Shown: positions 4,859 to 16,088 of the stretch, in pieces
Position numbering within the stretch: the first letter of the stretch is position 1
Layout: each line of letters starts with the position of its first letter
Virus record (IMG/VR): IMGVR_UViG_3300050015_000278
Coordinates: 1-27,110 of that record
Direction: 5' to 3' (one strand)
Origin: a virus
DNA length: 27,110 bases
Translations under genes and position numbers: made by a program
Notes under the pieces: generated by a model
Seen by the model: only the letters and a program-made list of their open reading frames with translations
Told to the model about the DNA's origin: nothing
Databases searched by the model: none

Positions 4859-6706
4859 TTAATATTCGATGCCCTTTTTGACCGCTCCATATTTTTTTTG
4901 CGGTTTATTTGAGGTATTATTGTTTGCGATTTCTCCGTTTCGCGTGTCATTTAATCGTTTTTCCAGCATTTCAAACACCGGATTGATTAATTTGAGTGCT
5001 GCTCGGGCATAATTTCTAAGATCAAAAGGCTCATTTCGAGCCTCAGGAGATACTTTTTCCCAGTTCATAGTAACCTTCCCCTTATATTTCCGCGGTACCT
5101 GGCGCTCAGAAACAAGCCCTTGAAAATAATTCACATCATAATCTGCAGTATTAGGAAAATGACAATAGAACTGCCCCGGCGTTTGCAGCTTAAGGCTGTT
5201 TATTACTGCAGTTTTACCTTCATCAACGCCAAGAATTATCAGCGCTGCGTTCTCCTTTTTAGTTCTGGTGATGCGGTAAACGAGCGGGATCCCCGCTCCG
5301 CCCTGGCCTTTGATAGCAAAGAATCGGCGGCTTTCATTGCCTTTGCAGTAATCATAAACCGCCGAAGTATAGTGACCGCCGCTGTCTACGCAGGCACACG
5401 CAACGGTCAACCCCAGGCCATCAGAGAATCGATACGTGCTTTTAAGAATATCGTCTATGGTCTGCCAGGTTTCTTTGTTGCCCGGGGATCCCATAACGAT
5501 TCCATGCTTTACACCCCAACTTTCTTCCCCTTTACCCCAGCCGACGATCTCATATTCCAGCCAGCGGTCTTGAGTATCCACGGCAGCAGTCAAAAATAAA
5601 ACGCCGTCCGGCAATTCGGCGGCGTAATCTTCGCGGCGTTTAACTAAGTATTCCTCATTTTCAATCTCACCCTTGACTTCGTAGGTCTCTCCCAAAACCG
5701 TATTGACAAAAACTTTGTACAGGTCCGGATCATCTTTATATTTAAGATAATCCATTATAATTTCATCCCACGTTCCCCATGGCGAGGCGAAGGCATTAAT
5801 TTTAAAACTTCTTGATCCTTTGGCCTCAGGATTTTCCGCAATCCATCTACCCGGTTGGTCCTTCCATGTGATTTCGTTAAATTCATCCAGGCAGTGGGGG
5901 CACCGGAATGTAATCTCATCAATAACATAATTGTCTTTGGCGTCTTTATGATATTCATAAATCATGCCGTACAGATTTACAAAAATAGGTTCCCCGCAGC
6001 AGGGGCATTCCATTCGCCATTCTTCCTGGGTACCGGAGAGATATTCGAATTCAATTCTGGATGTTCCTTTTATACCTGGGGTTGATACAAAAATCTTTTT
6101 CCGGTTCCAGAATGTGAGAGTACGCTTTTCCGCCAGCTGAATAGGATCGCCCTCAGATCCGGCGCTGTCTGGGTACCGATCAACTTCGTCACATAGTAAT
6201 ATTCTGATCGGGCGGCTGGCCAGCCCAGCTGGTGAGTTGGCACCGCCCATTGCCAGGAACCCGCCCGGGAAAACCTTCATCAGAATAGTATTATTTATAT
6301 CGCGGCTTTTGCTATCAGACACCTTATTGGTTAAAACTTTTGTGTCACGGATCAGGGATGATACCCGGCGCTTCGAAAAATCTTCCGCCATATTATCAGT
6401 GGGTTGGATCATCAACATTGGGCACGGATCCACGTCCACATAATAACCGATAATATTTAAGATAACTTCCGACTTGCCTATTTGGCTGCTGCTCATAACT
6501 ACAATTTTTTCAGTTCCAGGATGAGATACCGCATCCATTATTTCTCTTAAATAAGGCGCTCTATCGGTACGCCATTTTCCTGGTTCAGATGATGTCTCTT
6601 TTGACAGCACCCTGTTCTTATCAGCCCATTCGCTGATTGTCATCTGGGGAGGCAGAGCCCAGTAAATGCGAATATCTTCATTATAAAACTCAAATGTCTG
6701 TTTCAT
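4859..6706 (-). CDS. Terminase large subunit (lambda GpA family)
   Basis: About 615 residues (lambda gpA is 641). Near the N-terminus it has the family signature ISEWADKNRVLS and PGKWRTDRAPYLREIMDA, then a Walker A variant SSQIGKSE, a Walker B ILLCDEVDRYP, a C-motif-like FVSTPGIKGTSRIE, two CxxC pairs (CPCCGE, CPHCLDE) and the nuclease domain with AAVDTQDRWLEYEIVGWGKG and CVDSGGHYTS acidic residues. It cuts concatemeric DNA and drives packaging at the portal. I place the start at ATG 6706, with GGAG six bases upstream; the frame is open to TTG 6718. The start lies inside the small-subunit gene, a 17-base overlap. Confidence 0.95.
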   Translation of the reverse strand: MKQTFEFYNEDIRIYWALPPQMTISEWADKNRVLSKETSSEPGKWRTDRAPYLREIMDAVSHPGTEKIVVMSSSQIGKSEVILNIIGYYVDVDPCPMLMIQPTDNMAEDFSKRRVSSLIRDTKVLTNKVSDSKSRDINNTILMKVFPGGFLAMGGANSPAGLASRPIRILLCDEVDRYPDSAGSEGDPIQLAEKRTLTFWNRKKIFVSTPGIKGTSRIEFEYLSGTQEEWRMECPCCGEPIFVNLYGMIYEYHKDAKDNYVIDEITFRCPHCLDEFNEITWKDQPGRWIAENPEAKGSRSFKINAFASPWGTWDEIIMDYLKYKDDPDLYKVFVNTVLGETYEVKGEIENEEYLVKRREDYAAELPDGVLFLTAAVDTQDRWLEYEIVGWGKGEESWGVKHGIVMGSPGNKETWQTIDDILKSTYRFSDGLGLTVACACVDSGGHYTSAVYDYCKGNESRRFFAIKGQGGAGIPLVYRITRTKKENAALIILGVDEGKTAVINSLKLQTPGQFYCHFPNTADYDVNYFQGLVSERQVPRKYKGKVTMNWEKVSPEARNEPFDLRNYARAALKLINPVFEMLEKRLNDTRNGEIANNNTSNKPQKKYGAVKKGIEY

Positions 6707-7166
6707 CACACGCTCCAAGTTTTTCCGCTGGTATTTGCCTTAATTCGTCAAGGGCTTCAGACACTTCATTGTTAATAATCTGAGCGATAACAGCTAATTG
6801 GTTTTGCCCGATTATTTTGGGAGCGCATTTAGCCGCCATTGTGAGTAGTCGCGATTTGCAAGTTAAAATCATGCTAGCCATGAGCTGTTCAACTTCAGAT
6901 GTATATATCAAACTGCCCTTCATTAGTTCTAATTCTATTTCTGCAGTCTCTCTTTTTGCCTTCTCTAATAATGTGTGTTCAATATCGTAATTTATCTTTT
7001 CAGTTGGCTTAAATTTATACGCATAATAGGCTTCAACTGCATCTGGCATATAGTAATTTCCATCCGTTCCCCGGATAAGAATGCCTTCCTTATTAAGTTG
7101 ATTAACCCTCCGGGTCGACATTTTCAGGATTTTAGCCAATTCAGCACTTGTCATATTCAGATTCAT
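6690..7166 (-). CDS. Terminase small subunit (Nu1-like DNA packaging protein)
   Basis: 158 residues from the ATG at 7166 (GGAGG seven bases upstream; a GTG at 7169 is possible but too near). The N-terminus is a winged-helix/MerR-like DNA-binding domain (TSAELAKILKMSTRRVNQLN followed by the wing KEGILIRGTDGNYYM), as in lambda Nu1 (181 residues). The rest is helical with KAKRETAEIELELMKGSLI, a typical linker of this family. The C-terminus should bind the large subunit, whose gene overlaps. It should recognise the packaging site, which in lambda lies just upstream of this gene. Confidence 0.92.
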   Translation of the reverse strand: MNLNMTSAELAKILKMSTRRVNQLNKEGILIRGTDGNYYMPDAVEAYYAYKFKPTEKINYDIEHTLLEKAKRETAEIELELMKGSLIYTSEVEQLMASMILTCKSRLLTMAAKCAPKIIGQNQLAVIAQIINNEVSEALDELRQIPAEKLGACDETDI

Positions 7167-7594
7167 CACTTTACCTCCGGAAGGAAATGCTTTTGGGAAA
7201 TTTTATACCTAGTTAACTTTCGGGGCTTAGCCGCCCGCAATACATATAAATCCCCAGAAGTACCTTTTTAAAATGTTCTTCTTTATTAAATGCCTATATA
7301 TAGGGTTTTCTTTGGTTATGAAGATACGTGCTTCACAAGTTTGTCATTTATATAGTTAATCAGGGGGCAGCGAGTATTTATTTGATCCAAATACCGTCTG
7401 ACTATTACTGACCTTCAACACAAAGGATGTAACGAATATTAATAGATATGGTTCGCAAACATATTGCCAAGCGCTTGGGAAATTCAAAATATGCATTCTA
7501 AATAGGCCATTTGAGTTATCCATATCTTATAATTGTGTGGAACTCACAAGAGGTGGCACAAGCCCCAATCGTTTCAATGTTTGATAAGGTTTTT
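7167..7594. other. Long non-coding stretch upstream of terminase; candidate cos/packaging region
   Basis: About 430 bases with no convincing gene on either strand, AT-rich and clearly different from the packed genes on both sides. It holds two perfect 12-bp palindromes, CCTATATATAGG at 7293-7304 and CCAAGCGCTTGG at 7467-7478. In lambda the cos site lies directly upstream of the small terminase gene, so this is the natural place for the packaging site. It could also hold sites for the adjacent recombinase. I found no clear minus-strand promoter with both boxes here. Confidence 0.5.
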
Positions 7595-7632
7595 AAAAAA
7601 TGAGTTACACATACGTTTTTTATGTTGAACTC
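7595..7632 (-). terminator. Possible rho-independent terminator after the recombinase gene
   Basis: On the minus strand GAGTT (7628-7632) pairs with AACTC (7602-7606) and an inner ACATA (7621-7625) pairs with TATGT (7609-7613) across a two-base internal loop, followed by a run of six T (7600-7595). It overlaps the recombinase stop codon. The stem is AT-rich, so it is a weak candidate. Confidence 0.4.
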
Positions 7633-8179
7633 AGTAAATTCTAAACTTGTTTATAGCCAGGTCAATTCCTTCCTGTTCGATGCCAATATACAGAAGAGTA
7701 ATAGAAGGATGATTGTGATTAAATATCTTTTGTAGCGTCACGATGTCTTTATTTTGTTTGTAAAAATGGTAGCCAAAAGTTTTACGCAGCGTATGTGTAC
7801 CGATACATTCCAGGCCAAACTTTGCGCCGGCAGTCTTTAGAATCTTATAGGCCATTGATCTGCTTATGGGCTGATTGTAATTTTGTCTGGACTTTATTAG
7901 GTAATCGTCTGGGTCCTTATCCTGGCAATAAACGGCTAATTCCTTTTTAAGGATAGGATTGATCTCAAACGATCTTTGTTTGCCTGTTTTCTTTTCCCGC
8001 AGCGATATGTTTTTTCGGTCTTTAACATCTGATGTTTTAAGTTTAAGAACATCAGAGATGCGCAGGCCGGTATATATGCCCGCCAAAAACATAATAAAAT
8101 TACGTTCACTCTGAGCTCTTAAATAATTAGCAATGTCCTCTACCATAACCGGATCCCTGATCGGCTGCACAAAATTCAT
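7631..8179 (-). CDS. Minimal tyrosine recombinase (XerC/D-like catalytic domain only)
   Basis: 182 residues, about half of a usual phage integrase, containing only the catalytic domain. All active-site positions can be assigned: Arg40 (GLRISD), Lys64 region (REKKTGK), His129 and Arg132 (HTLRKT), His155 (FNHNHPS) and the nucleophile Tyr164 (LLYIGIE), with the usual nine-residue His-to-Tyr spacing. There is no N-terminal arm-binding or core-binding domain. It lies between early and late operons next to the terminase, not beside the repressor as integration genes usually do. Roles in dimer resolution, cos-linked recombination or integration are all possible. The ribosome site (GGTGGTGGGGAT before ATG) is weak. 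Confidence 0.9.
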   Translation of the reverse strand: MNFVQPIRDPVMVEDIANYLRAQSERNFIMFLAGIYTGLRISDVLKLKTSDVKDRKNISLREKKTGKQRSFEINPILKKELAVYCQDKDPDDYLIKSRQNYNQPISRSMAYKILKTAGAKFGLECIGTHTLRKTFGYHFYKQNKDIVTLQKIFNHNHPSITLLYIGIEQEGIDLAINKFRIY

Positions 8180-8202: not shown

Positions 8203-8400
8203 TTAGACTTCACTTACAGGCATCTTTAAAATAGCGAATCCCTCATTAGGACCTTTTATTTGCACAGTATAGTAGTCTGTTTCTTGTAGCCCTGGCTTAT
8301 CATCTTCGCGCTTATCCAGCACCTTGATTTTCATGGCCTTAAGAAAGGCTTCTTTTACCAAGGCCTTCTCTTCCTCTTTAATCATTACCCGCTGCTTCAA
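8203..8400 (-). CDS. Small phage protein, function unknown
   Basis: 65 residues starting at TTG 8400, which is seven bases after GGAGG (GGAGGTGAGGAT-TTG). A longer frame upstream would run through a strong terminator stem-loop, so those codons are not real. The protein has an N-terminal charged helix (VMIKEEEKALVKEAFLKAM) and a C-terminal beta-like part (YYTVQIKGPNEGFAILKM). No family recognised. It is the first gene after the terminator and thus probably the first gene of the late transcript, followed 23 bases later by the recombinase. Confidence 0.65.
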   Translation of the reverse strand: MKQRVMIKEEEKALVKEAFLKAMKIKVLDKREDDKPGLQETDYYTVQIKGPNEGFAILKMPVSEV

Positions 8401-8418: not shown

Positions 8419-8442
8419 AAAAAAGCCCCGCGCTTGCGAGGC
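8419..8442 (-). terminator. Strong rho-independent terminator between early and late blocks
   Basis: On the minus strand GCCTCGC (8442-8436), a four-base loop AAGC, GCGGGGC (8431-8425) and six T (8424-8419). The seven-pair stem is complete with one G-T pair. It either ends the long early transcript or lies just after a late promoter as an antitermination point, like lambda tR'. Confidence 0.88.
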
Positions 8443-8452
8443 CATACCTTGA

Positions 8453-8465
8453 TGTTTCTATAATA
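8453..8465 (-). promoter_or_regulatory. Possible activator-dependent late promoter
   Basis: On the minus strand a TATTAT -10-like box (8465-8460) lies downstream of the 11-bp repeat array and upstream of the terminator. There is no -35 match; the nearest repeat unit occupies about that position, as in promoters that need a bound activator. Transcription would begin near 8453. Inference only. Confidence 0.3.
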
Positions 8466-8480
8466 CTCCTGAAAAACGGC

Positions 8481-8546
8481 TCGTGATTCCCGTTCTATTC
8501 CCGATTTTTTCCCGTTCTATTCCTTTTCTATTCCCGATTTATTCCT
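8481..8546. repeat. Six contiguous 11-bp direct repeats
   Basis: On the minus strand the units read, in order, AGGAATAAATC, GGGAATAGAAA, AGGAATAGAAC, GGGAAAAAATC, GGGAATAGAAC and GGGAATCACGA, consensus (A/G)GGAATAGAAC, with no spacer. An 11-base period is close to one helical turn, so bound proteins would line up on one face. No gene covers it. It lies between the early and late blocks, next to a terminator, and is a candidate binding array for the late regulator. Confidence 0.8.
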
Positions 8547-8560
8547 GACACTTAATAGAT

Positions 8561-8587
8561 TGATCCGGGGCTATTAACCCCGGATCA
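8561..8587. repeat. Perfect 10-bp inverted repeat (hairpin)
   Basis: TGATCCGGGG (8561-8570) and CCCCGGATCA (8578-8587) are perfectly complementary with a seven-base loop CTATTAA. No T-run follows on either strand, so it is not a standard terminator. It lies 14 bases from the 11-bp array and holds the stop codon of a short reading frame in its loop. Confidence 0.75.
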
Positions 8588-8630
8588 TATTATATTGTGT
8601 TTGAGTTTTACTGAGATTAGGACATGTCAA
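8574..8630 (-). CDS. Possible 18-codon leader peptide
   Basis: A TTG at 8630 is preceded by GGGGAGG with a six-base spacer, an excellent ribosome site that has no other gene to serve. The frame reads LTCPNLSKTQTQYNMIRG (first codon would be Met) and stops in the loop of the 10-bp hairpin. A ribosome finishing here would sit on the hairpin, which suggests a translation-sensing leader. It may also be a chance site or a remnant of a lost gene. Confidence 0.25.
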   Translation of the reverse strand: MTCPNLSKTQTQYNMIRG

Positions 8631-8695: not shown

Positions 8696-8715
8696 CCGAC
8701 ATCTTACTGATCAGC
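8696..8715. repeat. Third, short copy of the DUF3102 gene 3'-end repeat
   Basis: CCGACATCTTACTGATCAGC matches the 20 bases at 10655-10674 with one mismatch and the 19 bases at 9662-9680 with one. It overlaps the end of the 238-codon gene: read in another frame it encodes LISKMS, the same residues as near the end of the DUF3102-like protein. It marks the left edge of the mosaic stretch. Confidence 0.6.
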
Positions 8716-9420
8716 AATAATTCCTATTTTGTAATCCGGCCAATATGTGTCCGTTCCACTTTTTACCTCTCCGGACCATTGGGTTAAAAATTCTTGAAGA
8801 CGGTTTATGTCTTCTTGAGATATATTAGTCTCGGCTTCTTCATGCAGTTCCTCGCAAGCATCAACAACAAGATCAGCAGCATCACGCAGCATAAAACTGG
8901 TGGTATATGTTCCCCAAACGTATGGCGTTTCAAGTTCTGGATCATCATCTTTTAATTCATCTAATCGTTCTGCAAGATCTTCTGGAGAAACATACTCATC
9001 CGGGCCGTCAATAAACACCATTGCGAACCGTTGATTTGCCTCTTCTATGCTGATTTTTTCAGCCTTCGCCCATCTTTCCTCATATTCTTGAAAACGCTTC
9101 TGGCTTCTTGCATCAGAAGCACCTTGGCATTGGCAATTAGTCTCAGCATGAATGTACATTCGTGATCCAGGCGCACCGCAGAATTTGCAAACTGGTTGAA
9201 CTCCGTTGTAACAATCTGGGCAAGGAAACAGGGATTGATTTTTGTATGGAAATCCGATTATCCAAGGCTGCGGCCTTTCTTCTTTAAGGCCATATACGTT
9301 ATCCCTGATTACTAAGCCTAAACCCTTGCATGTCGTACATACCCATTGATGTTCCATTAGGTCTTTTTCAAGCTGCTTCGGCAGCAGTAGTTCAATGTCT
9401 ACAAATACCTTTTCCGGCAT
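8704..9420 (-). CDS. Phage protein with DnaJ-type zinc-binding repeats, function unknown
   Basis: 238 residues. The first ~125 residues hold a cysteine cluster of DnaJ-like type: CTTCKGLG (CxxCxGxG), CPDCYNG, CKFCGAPG and CQCQGA, enough for two zinc ions. The rest is acidic and helical (for example DAADLVVDACEELHEEAE) without recognised motifs. AAGGAGGAG lies seven bases before the ATG, so the start is sound. It may bind nucleic acid or a partner protein; no catalytic motif is seen. Its stop codon lies inside a copy of the DUF3102 3'-end repeat, and a hairpin (TGCCGG/CCGGCA, ~8666-8687) follows. Confidence 0.8.
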   Translation of the reverse strand: MPEKVFVDIELLLPKQLEKDLMEHQWVCTTCKGLGLVIRDNVYGLKEERPQPWIIGFPYKNQSLFPCPDCYNGVQPVCKFCGAPGSRMYIHAETNCQCQGASDARSQKRFQEYEERWAKAEKISIEEANQRFAMVFIDGPDEYVSPEDLAERLDELKDDDPELETPYVWGTYTTSFMLRDAADLVVDACEELHEEAETNISQEDINRLQEFLTQWSGEVKSGTDTYWPDYKIGIIADQ

Positions 9421-11690: not shown

Positions 11691-13295
11691 CTAGGCCGGT
11701 ATCCTTATTCTTTCTCTCTCGCGTTTATCAACAAGCTTGGCCTCTTTGAAAGCTTCCACAAACTGCTTAACGATCTCATCGGGTGAGCAATTATTTTTAC
11801 CTCTGAGTTGGATAACAGTTTTTCCGCGTAACTCCATAGTAAAATATGGTGTATCTGGAGCTTCTGCCTTACGAACAAATAAAATTGTTTTTAATCCCTT
11901 GGCGTAATCTGGCGCGTAATTTCCTACGCAGTGGTTAAGTGCTTTCCCTTCAGCGATCAATTCATCCGCAGTTTGGGCCGGACGGATCAATAAGCCCTGA
12001 TGTTTGTAATATAATTTTTTCAGCAGCTTTGCCTTTTCTGCGATCTGCACTTGTAATTCTGCATCCGCTTTAATATTGATCTGCTTTATCATATTCTGAT
12101 GAGCTGCGTGCAGGTTTTTATGGAAAATAACTTTGAGATCCTGCACGTCGAGATTGAGGCGCTTGCAATCCCTCAAATAATCATTCCAGGCGCTTAGTAC
12201 ATCACTGCCACTCTTGAATCGTTTGGGATTGCAGGCACGTTGCTTTTGAATATAATTGAACGCTTTCCGGAAAGACAGATATGCGAGCATGTCTTTTAGG
12301 TAATTTTCATGATATTCCCTGATACTTAATTCATTAATTTCAATCGGTGTTAGGTTAGATCCATCCTTTTTAGCCATTTGCAGTAAGTGTAAAAAGAAAC
12401 AGTCTGGATTCAGTCCATTTTGTTTTATTTCCTTCAGTTCATTTTTGTTTAGTTTCAAAACCTTAAAAACAGTTTTTCCGCGCCAATTAATAGCACTATA
12501 AGTACGGTCATGGCCAAGCTTTTCTCTAACCAGCTCTTTAAATCCAAATTTAGTTAGGTATTCTATACAAGGATAGCGAGAGTATAAATTAAGAATTTCA
12601 ACTATGTCATAACGCTGCTGATATTCTTCCCAGCAGCTGTATTGGAATTGGGTGCCGGATACTGCTTTTTTGATGTTTTCCAGCGAATAATTCAGTCCCA
12701 ATACCATTGAGTAACGTTGATCTATAAAAGCGGTTTTTCTTTGTTGCCATGGATATTTTTTATTATGAAAATCGTGGTCCCAGTAGTAACCGGCATTAGA
12801 AAACATCTTGGAGCCGCCCATTTCAAATACGTACCTGGTTACTTCGAGGTACTGTGTTTTAACATCGTGGTAGTCGTTGGAATAATCGCGGAAAGCTGCA
12901 AATCCACGAGCAACGACAACATTGGAATCCCTAGTTGATTTGTCAAAGTAGATAAAATATGCCCTGTCAAGAAGCGATTTGCGTCCGATACCTGAAGCTT
13001 TAGGCACACATTCGCTGCCGCAATGCGGACATTTTACACGAGCCGGCGGAGGAAGCATTCCATGCGAACAATATGGTTGTACATAATTTGCCTGGTGTTT
13101 TAATTTTAGATTTGTGGAATCAAATTCTTTTTTGCAATGAGTGCAATAGCTGAATTGTTTTTTTCCTTGGCGCCTGGTGAATAAATACCGACTCTCGAGA
13201 AAAACTTCATCCGTGGCATATCTAGAAATTTCTTTGCTGATTCCTGATTTAAAATACCCCATATATGACTTAATAGTCTTTTCCAAAGATATCAC
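11691..13295 (-). CDS. PcfJ-like protein
   Basis: 534 residues. The C-terminal part matches the PcfJ family: RPAQTADELIAEGKALNHCV, GNYAPDYAKG, LFVRKAEAPDTPYFTMEL and VIQLRGKNNCSPDEIV. The N-terminal ~110 residues carry two CxxC pairs (YCTHCKKEF, CPHCGSEC) plus other Cys/His, a zinc-ribbon region. PcfJ was named in the conjugative plasmid pCF10 and occurs widely in phages and integrative elements; its biochemistry is unknown to me. The start is unclear: the GTG at 13295 has AAGGCGG almost touching it, and an in-frame TTG three codons on is possible. It directly follows the PcfK-like gene, the usual pairing. Confidence 0.9.
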   Translation of the reverse strand: MISLEKTIKSYMGYFKSGISKEISRYATDEVFLESRYLFTRRQGKKQFSYCTHCKKEFDSTNLKLKHQANYVQPYCSHGMLPPPARVKCPHCGSECVPKASGIGRKSLLDRAYFIYFDKSTRDSNVVVARGFAAFRDYSNDYHDVKTQYLEVTRYVFEMGGSKMFSNAGYYWDHDFHNKKYPWQQRKTAFIDQRYSMVLGLNYSLENIKKAVSGTQFQYSCWEEYQQRYDIVEILNLYSRYPCIEYLTKFGFKELVREKLGHDRTYSAINWRGKTVFKVLKLNKNELKEIKQNGLNPDCFFLHLLQMAKKDGSNLTPIEINELSIREYHENYLKDMLAYLSFRKAFNYIQKQRACNPKRFKSGSDVLSAWNDYLRDCKRLNLDVQDLKVIFHKNLHAAHQNMIKQINIKADAELQVQIAEKAKLLKKLYYKHQGLLIRPAQTADELIAEGKALNHCVGNYAPDYAKGLKTILFVRKAEAPDTPYFTMELRGKTVIQLRGKNNCSPDEIVKQFVEAFKEAKLVDKRERERIRIPA

Positions 13296-13673: not shown

Positions 13674-14198
13674 CTATATCGCTTTTGCACATTTCCATAA
13701 CGCCTGATCCATAAACATTCCTAATACCGTTTCAACCTCTTCGTCTGGCAGGTACCCGAAGCACCAACTCAGGACCCGGACTATTTCATCCTTGCGTGCG
13801 TAATAGGTGTTCTTGTCGATGCACATGTCAATGGTTATGTCCTGCCAGGTGCACTTCTCAAAATATATCTTTTCGACCACGCGCTTTTGCTCCGGATCAA
13901 GCATAATATCAATCGACGTCTCAACAATTTCTTTTAATACCTCAAGATTTTTAATTTTGCATTCAAGTTTCAAAATTGCATCGCCTTCGATCCGATTCAA
14001 GGCCGCTTTTTCGACCGGGTTAGATACAGAATAAGAGGTGCCCTCGCGCAATTCATAACTAGCAATCATGCTGGGCTCCAGCTGCTGCCTGACCATTTCG
14101 ATCTGTTGTTTAATTGACATGATCCTGATCGGGAAGCTCTTGTATGTATAAAGCATCTTTTCCGTAGCCTGATACCAACTATTTTTCTTTTGTCTCAC
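13674..14198 (-). CDS. ArpU/RinA-type late transcription regulator
   Basis: 174 residues with the layout of phage late regulators of the ArpU/RinA group: an N-terminal helical region (SIKQQIEMVRQQLEPS), a central helix ILKLECKIKNLEVLKEIVET, and a C-terminal sigma-region-4-like helix-turn-helix, RVVEKIYFEKCTWQDITIDM followed by CIDKNTYYARKDEIVRVLSW. Such proteins activate late operons. GGAGG lies seven bases before the GTG start. It is the only clear late-activator candidate here, so the 11-bp array at 8481-8546 is a plausible target. That link is inference. Confidence 0.85.
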   Translation of the reverse strand: MRQKKNSWYQATEKMLYTYKSFPIRIMSIKQQIEMVRQQLEPSMIASYELREGTSYSVSNPVEKAALNRIEGDAILKLECKIKNLEVLKEIVETSIDIMLDPEQKRVVEKIYFEKCTWQDITIDMCIDKNTYYARKDEIVRVLSWCFGYLPDEEVETVLGMFMDQALWKCAKAI

Positions 14199-14404: not shown

Positions 14405-15270
14405 CACGCTACCCTCCAGTCTTTGCCCTGGATTTCAAATCTCATGCCAGTGCCCCACATCCGCGACACCAGCGCCATGCCCTCTTTTTCTTTTAATTGG
14501 TTGCCAGTGAAGTTAGTGGTGAATATGGTCGACCGGCGTTTGTGTCGGCTGTCTATCACCTCGTAAAACTTAGCTGTAACCCATTCGGTGGTTTTTTCTA
14601 TGCCTACCTCATCAATCACTAATAAATCTACGTTTTTCAGGGCAAACATGATGTCCGCCTCCGAAGCATCGTCTTTTTTGTCATACGTCCGTTTGATCCG
14701 GTTGAGCAAATCGATGCTTTTAATCGCCAAAACGATATGCCCTTTTTTAGTCGCTTGATGAGCCACTCCCAAAGCAAGGTGCGTCTTGCCTCGGCCTGAA
14801 TCACCGTATAGACAAATACCATCTTTGCCAACTTCAAACCCTTTAAGTGCTACGAGCGCTTCCGCCTGGCTGGGATTTCCAGGCCTAAAGCTTTCCAGAG
14901 TCATATGTTTGTGCGACTCATCGTAAAGCAGATTGTTTTGGACGAAATAGAATTGGCACATTTGGAATAAAAGATCCTTCTGAGCCTGTACGCTCTCGTG
15001 TTGTCTTTCGTTCTCCTTTATTTGCAATATAGGTATCATACAGTTGCACGGAGTGCGCTCACAATGCAGAGTCTGGTGATAATCGATATAATATCTCTGA
15101 TAATATACACCGCCGCAGCCGTGCCCCCGATCGGGATCGCCAGTGTTATAAAAATCATGATCACATATGCACTCTTCGATTCCGCCTACCTGGATATATC
15201 CGCGCTGCAGAGGTTCCCGGAAAGGAATATTATCATCCAGTGTAGTCATCCTGCTTGTATCGGCTTGCAT
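14404..15270 (-). CDS. DnaC/IstB-like replicative helicase loader ATPase
   Basis: 288 residues. The C-terminal AAA+ domain has Walker A GDSGRGKTHLALG, Walker B VDLLVIDEVG and sensor-1 IFTTNFTGNQL. The first ~90 residues are Cys/His-rich (ECICDHDF, GHGCGG, HCERTPCNC), a probable zinc-binding domain as in many phage DnaC/DnaI-like loaders. It should load the host replicative helicase at the phage origin together with the initiator encoded just upstream, with which it overlaps by 38 bases. The start is ATG 15270 or ATG 15249; neither has an ideal ribosome site, and coupling is likely. Confidence 0.92.
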   Translation of the reverse strand: MQADTSRMTTLDDNIPFREPLQRGYIQVGGIEECICDHDFYNTGDPDRGHGCGGVYYQRYYIDYHQTLHCERTPCNCMIPILQIKENERQHESVQAQKDLLFQMCQFYFVQNNLLYDESHKHMTLESFRPGNPSQAEALVALKGFEVGKDGICLYGDSGRGKTHLALGVAHQATKKGHIVLAIKSIDLLNRIKRTYDKKDDASEADIMFALKNVDLLVIDEVGIEKTTEWVTAKFYEVIDSRHKRRSTIFTTNFTGNQLKEKEGMALVSRMWGTGMRFEIQGKDWRVA

Positions 15271-16060
15271 CCATGTTCACCACCTTCCCATCTGGTACAT
15301 ATTCAAGAAAAGGTCTCCGCGGTCCCAAAAACGTCTTACAAAGTTTGATATACTGCTCCTCAGTTTTGCTTCTTAGGCACTCAGCTGCATAACCTTTAGC
15401 AGCTGCCAGCATATCCCGGGGCAAGTGGCCATCTTTTTTACGGGCCTTCCAACACGCAAATGCGGCTTGCTTTTCTTTTCTGCGCGGATACGCCGCCCAA
15501 AACTCTTCAAACTCTGCTGAGTATTCGTTGCCTTTGCCAGGATCTGCATTGGCTTCATCCTGCGCTCCTTCACTTTCCTCAAAAAGAGAATTCTCAGCCG
15601 GGGCAACTTTTTCCGCACCGTCCGGTGCAGAGGAATCAGGAATTAGGTTAAGGGAATCAGGAATCAGGTTAAGGGAATCAGCCCGATTAGTTGTGTGCAT
15701 TTCCTGTACTTGTACTGTACTTGTACTGTTCTGCTCTGGTAATGGTGGAATAACGCTATTGGTCTCGTTTTTATGAGGGTTCTGGTGAAGGTTAAAATTA
15801 ATAATCTGTATATATGCTTCTTCATCCACCGAATATCTGATAATAAAATTTGCGCTATTAAGATCGGTGAGTAATTTATCTATATCGCAATCATCATAAG
15901 GTAGAATCTCAGCTTTGATTTTTTTAGGACGATCTTCTAATCTCCCTTCCCGATCTGCGATAGTCCATAGGCCAGCAAATAGCAACCTGCCCAACGGATT
16001 TATTTCGGCTAATTTATCATTTATGAAGAATCCCGGTTTAATATTTCTAGATCTTGCCAT
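15233..16060 (-). CDS. Phage replication initiator, winged-helix (lambda O / DnaD-like role)
   Basis: 275 residues from ATG 16060, preceded by a GAGGGGGAGCAGGGGG purine run; ATG 16078 is possible. Residues 1-105 are a winged-helix domain typical of phage initiators (RNIKPGFFINDKLAEINPLG, GLWTIADREGRLEDRPKKIK). A central linker contains a tandem SLNLIPD peptide repeat. The C-terminal domain FEEFWAAYPRRKEKQAAFAC, KTFLGPRRPFLEYVPDG is the common helicase-loader-interaction module. It should bind the origin and recruit the DnaC-like loader. Short repeats inside the gene suggest the origin lies within it, as in lambda O. Confidence 0.88.
   Translation of the reverse strand: MARSRNIKPGFFINDKLAEINPLGRLLFAGLWTIADREGRLEDRPKKIKAEILPYDDCDIDKLLTDLNSANFIIRYSVDEEAYIQIINFNLHQNPHKNETNSVIPPLPEQNSTSTVQVQEMHTTNRADSLNLIPDSLNLIPDSSAPDGAEKVAPAENSLFEESEGAQDEANADPGKGNEYSAEFEEFWAAYPRRKEKQAAFACWKARKKDGHLPRDMLAAAKGYAAECLRSKTEEQYIKLCKTFLGPRRPFLEYVPDGKVVNMDASRYKQDDYTG
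15632..15726. repeat. Tandem repeats inside the initiator gene; candidate replication origin
   Basis: A 21-bp unit GGAATCAGGAATTAGGTTAAG is repeated at 15632-15652 and 15653-15673 with one mismatch, followed by eight bases of a third. About 30 bases on, an 11-bp unit TGTACTTGTAC is perfectly repeated at 15705-15715 and 15716-15726. Iterons inside the initiator gene are the lambda-type origin layout. They fall in a protein linker, where repeats can also arise without function. Confidence 0.5.
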
Positions 16061-16088
16061 CCCCCTGCTCCCCCTCATGTTATCCAGC

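Follow-up and report, generated by a model that had tools for sequence, protein, structure and literature searches.

The window, 27,110 nucleotides of a virus record (IMGVR_UViG_3300050015_000278), has six contiguous 11-bp units on its minus strand at 8546-8481. The units read AGGAATAAATC GGGAATAGAAA AGGAATAGAAC GGGAAAAAATC GGGAATAGAAC GGGAATCACGA and have the core GGAAT or GGAAA, which is proposed here as the site of an ArpU/RinA-like activator. TRF places the array at 8486-8545, with a period of 11 and a score of 71. At period 11 and six units, the column-agreement score reaches 0.818, which is higher than in every one of 500 simulated windows (first-order Markov copies of the whole window, periods 7-15); the best of these reached 0.771. 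The six contiguous minus-strand repeats of the original prediction are therefore borne out. They had been assigned to a feature at 8419-8630; the array is present there, but it covers 66 bp and not 212. Across relatives every unit keeps GGAA (27 of 27, as follows from the way the tally was constructed), and the next position is T or A. Immediately upstream of the array is a perfect 27-bp inverted repeat with a 12-bp stem, TGATCCGGGGTTAATAGCCCCGGATCA (8561-8587).

A -10 hexamer, TATTAT, is located at 8460-8465 on the minus strand, 25 nt from the last GGAAT core. No sigma-70-type -35/-10 pair was found at this hexamer, in agreement with the earlier description of a TATTAT box that lacks a -35. 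Transcription is predicted to start near 8453 (minus strand), at an A after a C, by register with the mapped start of Lactococcus phage TP901-1, which we take to be position 13073. With this start the array would extend from about -93 to -28 and its last core from -37 to -33. An intrinsic terminator, GGCCTCGC-AAGC-GCGGGGCTTTTTT, occupies 8419-8443 on the same strand, or about +11 to +35. The hairpin (8443-8424) has a folding energy of -14.1 kcal/mol and a z of -2.6, and the T-run continues to 8419; the terminator claimed just downstream of TATTAT is thus in place.

The first gene past the terminator (8203-8400, minus strand) encodes a small protein for which no relatives were found; it has a TTG start and a ribosome-binding site, GGAGGTGAGG, at 8412-8403. 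The second gene of the late unit (7631-8179, minus strand) encodes a short tyrosine recombinase of 182 aa. Its PF00589 match covers residues 14-165, so the protein is little more than a catalytic domain. Recombinases of this family (PHROG 216) are found near the late regulator and the terminase small subunit (TerS) in several Firmicutes phages and also occur in streptococcal satellite phages. TerS (6690-7169, phrog_57) and a terminase large subunit (TerL) of the gpA type, assigned by family match (4859-6718), are encoded on the minus strand as well. The gene adjoining the array on its other side (8704-9420) matched no known family, and Rfam gave no RNA family.

The regulator and the array in relatives

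The proposed ligand of the array is the 174-aa product of a minus-strand gene at 13674-14198, which is upstream of the array at a distance of 5.1 kb. RinA/ArpU-like proteins are regarded as the regulators of packaging in many phages of Gram-positive bacteria, and to our knowledge few sites have been defined for them. The regulator matches PHROG 36, the RinA/ArpU-like group at large, over most of its length (residues 3-153, E 1.4e-20; PHROGs have no curated cut-off). It shares this broad family and the role of a packaging-gene regulator with RinA of phage phi11 and with ArpU. It differs from RinA and ArpU proper, since it scores 22.6 bits against the curated cut-off of 31.9 for the RinA family (TIGR01636) and 18.1 bits against 43.1 for the ArpU family (TIGR01637).

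The AlphaFold2 model of the regulator has a mean pLDDT of 76.8, with values of about 90-95 over residues 81-140. The solved structures nearest to the model in Foldseek are sigma factors, and the pieces that fit best are region 4, which binds the -35 element. For the C-terminal part the matches are 3hug (probability 0.99, target TM-score 0.80) and 2h27, with weak E-values of 0.3-2.5. The model suggests that the C-terminal half of the regulator resembles sigma region 4. The array core (GGAAT/GGAAC) in turn resembles the -35 element of sigma-E (GGAAC), and a sigma-4-like domain would fit a last unit placed at -35. The likeness to ECF sigma factors is confined to the C-terminal fold; there is no evidence of a sigma region 2 in the window regulator, and the element is present in many copies rather than one.

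The array was searched for in other sequences by its DNA pattern and by the regulator protein. The pattern GGAATN6GGAATN6GGAATN6GGAA occurs at 78 places in IMG/VR, most of which are coding repeats or satellites. Six matches (L046, L069, L020, L044, L072 and L091) have promoter geometry, as judged by eye and not blind. A PHROG 36 gene is present on all six of these contigs and on 6 of the 60 other contigs tested; contig L088 has the array and the regulator and lacks the promoter geometry. The same kind of scan of genome contigs gave 119 matches, mostly chance or tandem repeats. The key relative among them is L149, from a Syntrophomonadaceae genome, in which the regulator, an array overlapping the 3' end of the regulator gene, a -10 and a recombinase follow in this order. 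Almost no related loci were obtained when the query was the recombinase, TerS or the 70-aa gene that follows the promoter, and a search of the genome contigs with TerL gave none.

Since the first relatives had been found by a DNA pattern, the regulator protein was used as the query instead. The genome search found L231 and L232 (64% and 61% identical to the window protein), and an alignment search of IMG/VR found L273, which is the L046 contig, L274, L275, L276 and the distant L277. All six close relatives, whose regulators are 58-81% identical to that of the window, have arrays of three to six 11-bp GGGAA units with a -10 at 25 nt, and L149, found by DNA pattern, is a seventh relative with an array of this type. 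The regulator is adjacent to the array in L149, L232 and L275. L277 has GGACT units in a similar geometry. A third genome match, L233, with a regulator 38% identical, has no clear array. The L046/L273 contig is the closest case: its regulator is about 80% identical (81% in the protein search), and its array is nearly that of the window letter for letter. The inverted repeat before the array is also nearly intact there, so that the 27-bp repeat and the array are common to both as one cassette, while the genes flanking the array differ.

The window led to a prediction, that array and regulator would go together in new sequences, and the comparison bore it out. The check in relatives proposed with the original prediction came out in its favor, because the 11-bp array is kept in all six close relatives found by protein and in L149. 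A broader survey covered the 1.5 kb downstream of 38 ArpU-family loci that were not chosen for an array. Period 11 is significant at p<=0.01 in 10 of them, 3 of which are near-identical prophages of one genome, compared with 0-6 loci for periods 7-10 and 12-15; the signal is absent from all seven sigma-factor controls. Most of the surveyed loci have no significant 11-bp array within 1.5 kb. The period-11 enrichment downstream of ArpU-family genes is real and is not universal within this distance.

The distance between array and -10 is also constant. When each array was walked by rule, a -10-like hexamer (at least 4 of 6 matches) was found 25 or 26 nt past the last core in 11 of 11 GGA-core arrays, while other offset pairs gave a mean of 2.3 loci and a maximum of 8. 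With this spacing, the last core (-37 to -33) occupies the position of a -35 element. Arrays with other cores have a -10-like hexamer 27 nt beyond their end. They include an Exiguobacterium phage (core TGATACG, similar geometry), beside whose array no PHROG 36 gene was identified, and a Lysinibacillus element that has an ArpU gene (core TGGCAGA, similar geometry). The third is Paenibacillus phage phiERICV (L012 2790-2865, core TGAGATTTT), whose 11-bp repeats have a similar -10 spacing; they precede a YopX gene and also the regulator's own (ArpU) gene, and arrays of this kind may therefore act at a middle promoter or in autoregulation as well. Since the cores differ by subfamily (GGAAT, GGACT, TGATACG, TGGCAGA), the coevolution of regulator and site can be followed. 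The rule of 11-bp units with a last core 25-27 nt before the -10 may allow a late promoter and the specificity word of its regulator to be read from sequence. Neither this rule nor the link of the array to the RinA/ArpU-like subfamily was found in the accessible part of the literature.

The probable late promoter and its terminator

The original prediction stated that arrays on one DNA face were not known for this regulator group. This is wrong, since Alt of TP901-1 binds four imperfect direct repeats with an 11-bp pitch in the same register; the repeats are placed at -76 to -32 in PMC13123087, which cites Brondsted 2001 and Pedersen 2006. In the TP901-1 sequence (L013 698-741), four contiguous 11-bp units span -76 to -33, and their register relative to the -10 is that of the window. 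The two loci are alike in their imperfect 11-bp repeats, in a GG at about -38/-37, in their position just before the terminase genes and in an activator encoded upstream. They differ in that TP901-1 has four less regular units rather than six and another core, and lacks a terminator-like hairpin in the 80 nt after its start. In addition, Alt belongs to PHROG 2198 and matches PHROG 36 weakly (E 0.005), unlike the window regulator.

According to the same source, Ltr regulators generally bind four imperfect repeats, and the late promoter P23 of Staphylococcus phage phi13 needs a phage-encoded activator, Ltr, and a repeat array at -107 to -42 (PMC13123087). P23 resembles the window as a late promoter with an upstream array; it differs in its 18-bp repeats, present in three and a half copies, and in its Ltr, which is described there as a member of family IV. 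The window has direct repeats directly upstream of a -10 promoter and before packaging genes, as the Alt/Ltr late promoters do. Because the TP901-1 repeats match in pitch and register, the type of array was already known, and by this comparison the array of the window belongs to the Alt/Ltr late promoters. The comparison adds a more regular form of up to six units, a RinA/ArpU-like subfamily and the spacing rule.

The locus is very probably a late promoter of a temperate phage, with the array bound by the phage's own ArpU/RinA-like protein and a terminator after the start; the host is probably a member of the Firmicutes. Copies of the early-gene regulator would sit next to one another on the six units, all on the same DNA face, and cover about -93 to -28. 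Since its C-terminal domain is sigma-4-like and the last unit is at -35, the bound protein may assist sigma region 4, or stand in for it, where a -10 box is the sole promoter element. Transcription would then start near 8453, and RNA polymerase would have to get past the terminator (+11 to +35) to transcribe the recombinase, terminase and head genes. The terminator may help to keep the late genes silent when the activator is absent. The original prediction of an activator-controlled late promoter with an ArpU/RinA-like ligand appears well supported, since the array type and the -10 spacing are kept in every close relative.

The assignment of this ligand is strong as judged from sequence comparison. 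It is quite improbable that another protein, such as a host response regulator or a different early product, binds the array, or that the array serves as a repressor operator. Direct repeats of 11 bp are also known as sites of Pho-type response regulators, and the gene beside the array (8704-9420) has no known family. However, searches with the regulator protein recover the array each time in close relatives, and L273 keeps both regulator and array while the genes neighboring the array differ.

The terminator is conserved together with the promoter. A terminator-like hairpin is found no more than 80 nt past the predicted start in all eight promoters of the window-regulator subfamily (window, L231, L232, L273, L274, L275, L276 and L149) and in none of 10 other array promoters. 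The background is 32 of 1500 random 88-nt windows (about 2%) and 3 of 480 shuffles. The hairpin extends from about +7/+9 to +28/+32 in five of the eight, and the stems or loops differ. Compared with the window, L232 has the same position and the same stem, L275 is similar and L231 has another stem. The eight loci are related; therefore, they are not independent events.

One explanation is that the terminator only stops early transcripts entering from upstream, to which we give somewhat less than an even chance. It agrees with L149, L232 and L275, where the start of the array falls inside the regulator gene or at its end; any terminator of the early unit there has to follow the array. However, in the window, L231, L273, L274 and L276 the regulator gene and the array are 0.1-5.4 kb apart, and even so the terminator immediately follows the promoter. 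A functional tie between promoter and terminator is therefore favored.

A second explanation, which extends the late-promoter reading and is rather unlikely as it stands, is a Q-like system. The regulator would activate the promoter and then stay with or modify RNA polymerase, which would read through the terminator. Since the stop signal is always directly past the start in the subfamily, RNA polymerase would need help to pass it. A terminator soon after the late start, the arrangement of a Q-type unit, is seen at the level of sequence in all eight subfamily promoters. The window and L273 keep the promoter-terminator pair even though the regulator gene is more than 5 kb away, and the window has other hairpins upstream of the promoter. 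On the other hand, neither lambda Q nor any other antiterminator turned up among the family matches, the eight hairpins come from related loci and the terminator could be plain insulation. In lambda, the Q-dependent pR'-tR' unit has a late promoter and then a terminator before the late genes. The window resembles it at most in this layout: no Q homolog is seen, the promoter has an activator array upstream of it, and its terminator (at +11) is closer to the start than in lambda.

Antitermination control of the late genes seems to gain some support from the conserved promoter-proximal terminator. Nothing relevant on antitermination by the RinA/ArpU-like group was found in the literature, which is weak evidence because most journals were not covered. 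It is conceivable, if doubtful, that a phased stack of about six sigma-region-4-like proteins on -35-like elements both initiates late transcription and renders the polymerase insensitive to the terminator about 10 nt past the start. This would be a Firmicutes counterpart of lambda Q built on an unrelated protein. The conserved promoter-terminator pair is a variant of the Alt/Ltr late promoter worth testing, and a terminator-like hairpin present right past the start throughout one subfamily raises a direct and easily tested question of antitermination in Gram-positive phages.

Other roles of the array and nearby repeats

It is highly improbable that the array is an iteron-type replication origin of the phage. 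Many of the GGAAT arrays with an 11-bp period in IMG/VR fall inside long ORFs, and some are followed by purine-rich runs, as in an origin. The array of the window, in contrast, is outside a long gene, has a fixed distance to a -10 and tracks the regulator. Iterons are expected in or next to an initiator gene, and the replication initiator gene of the window (15233-16078) has repeats of its own at 15631-15733; the origin reading of the array was therefore rejected. Arm-type or accessory sites of the neighboring tyrosine recombinase, as part of attP, are hardly credible either and were rejected as well: a recombinase gene follows the array in the window, L149, L231, L273, L274 and L277, but L232, L275 and L276 have none among the ORFs of the next 1.4-4.5 kb, L002 has a recombinase 59% identical and no comparable array, and a protein of 182 aa that is mostly catalytic domain is unlikely to have an arm-binding domain.

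The repeats inside the initiator gene are direct repeats, GGAATCAGGAATCAGGTTAAG and CTGTACTTGTA, and are likely to be the phage origin. Repeats of 11 bp with GGAATC are also found inside long ORFs of many phage contigs (L026, L031, L035, L036, L074, L090 and others); with purine-rich runs after some of them, they resemble origins placed within replication genes. An IMG/VR contig that is 100% identical to the window starts exactly at window position 7235, 66 nt before TerS, in GGGCGGCTAAGCCCCG; this position is probably a cos end. The motif AAGGTACTTCTGNGG is located about 30 nt upstream of 7235 (about 7264, minus strand), and the Exiguobacterium phage has the motif at the same place (coordinates for the cos-end observation: L008 1-60; L009 about 7269).
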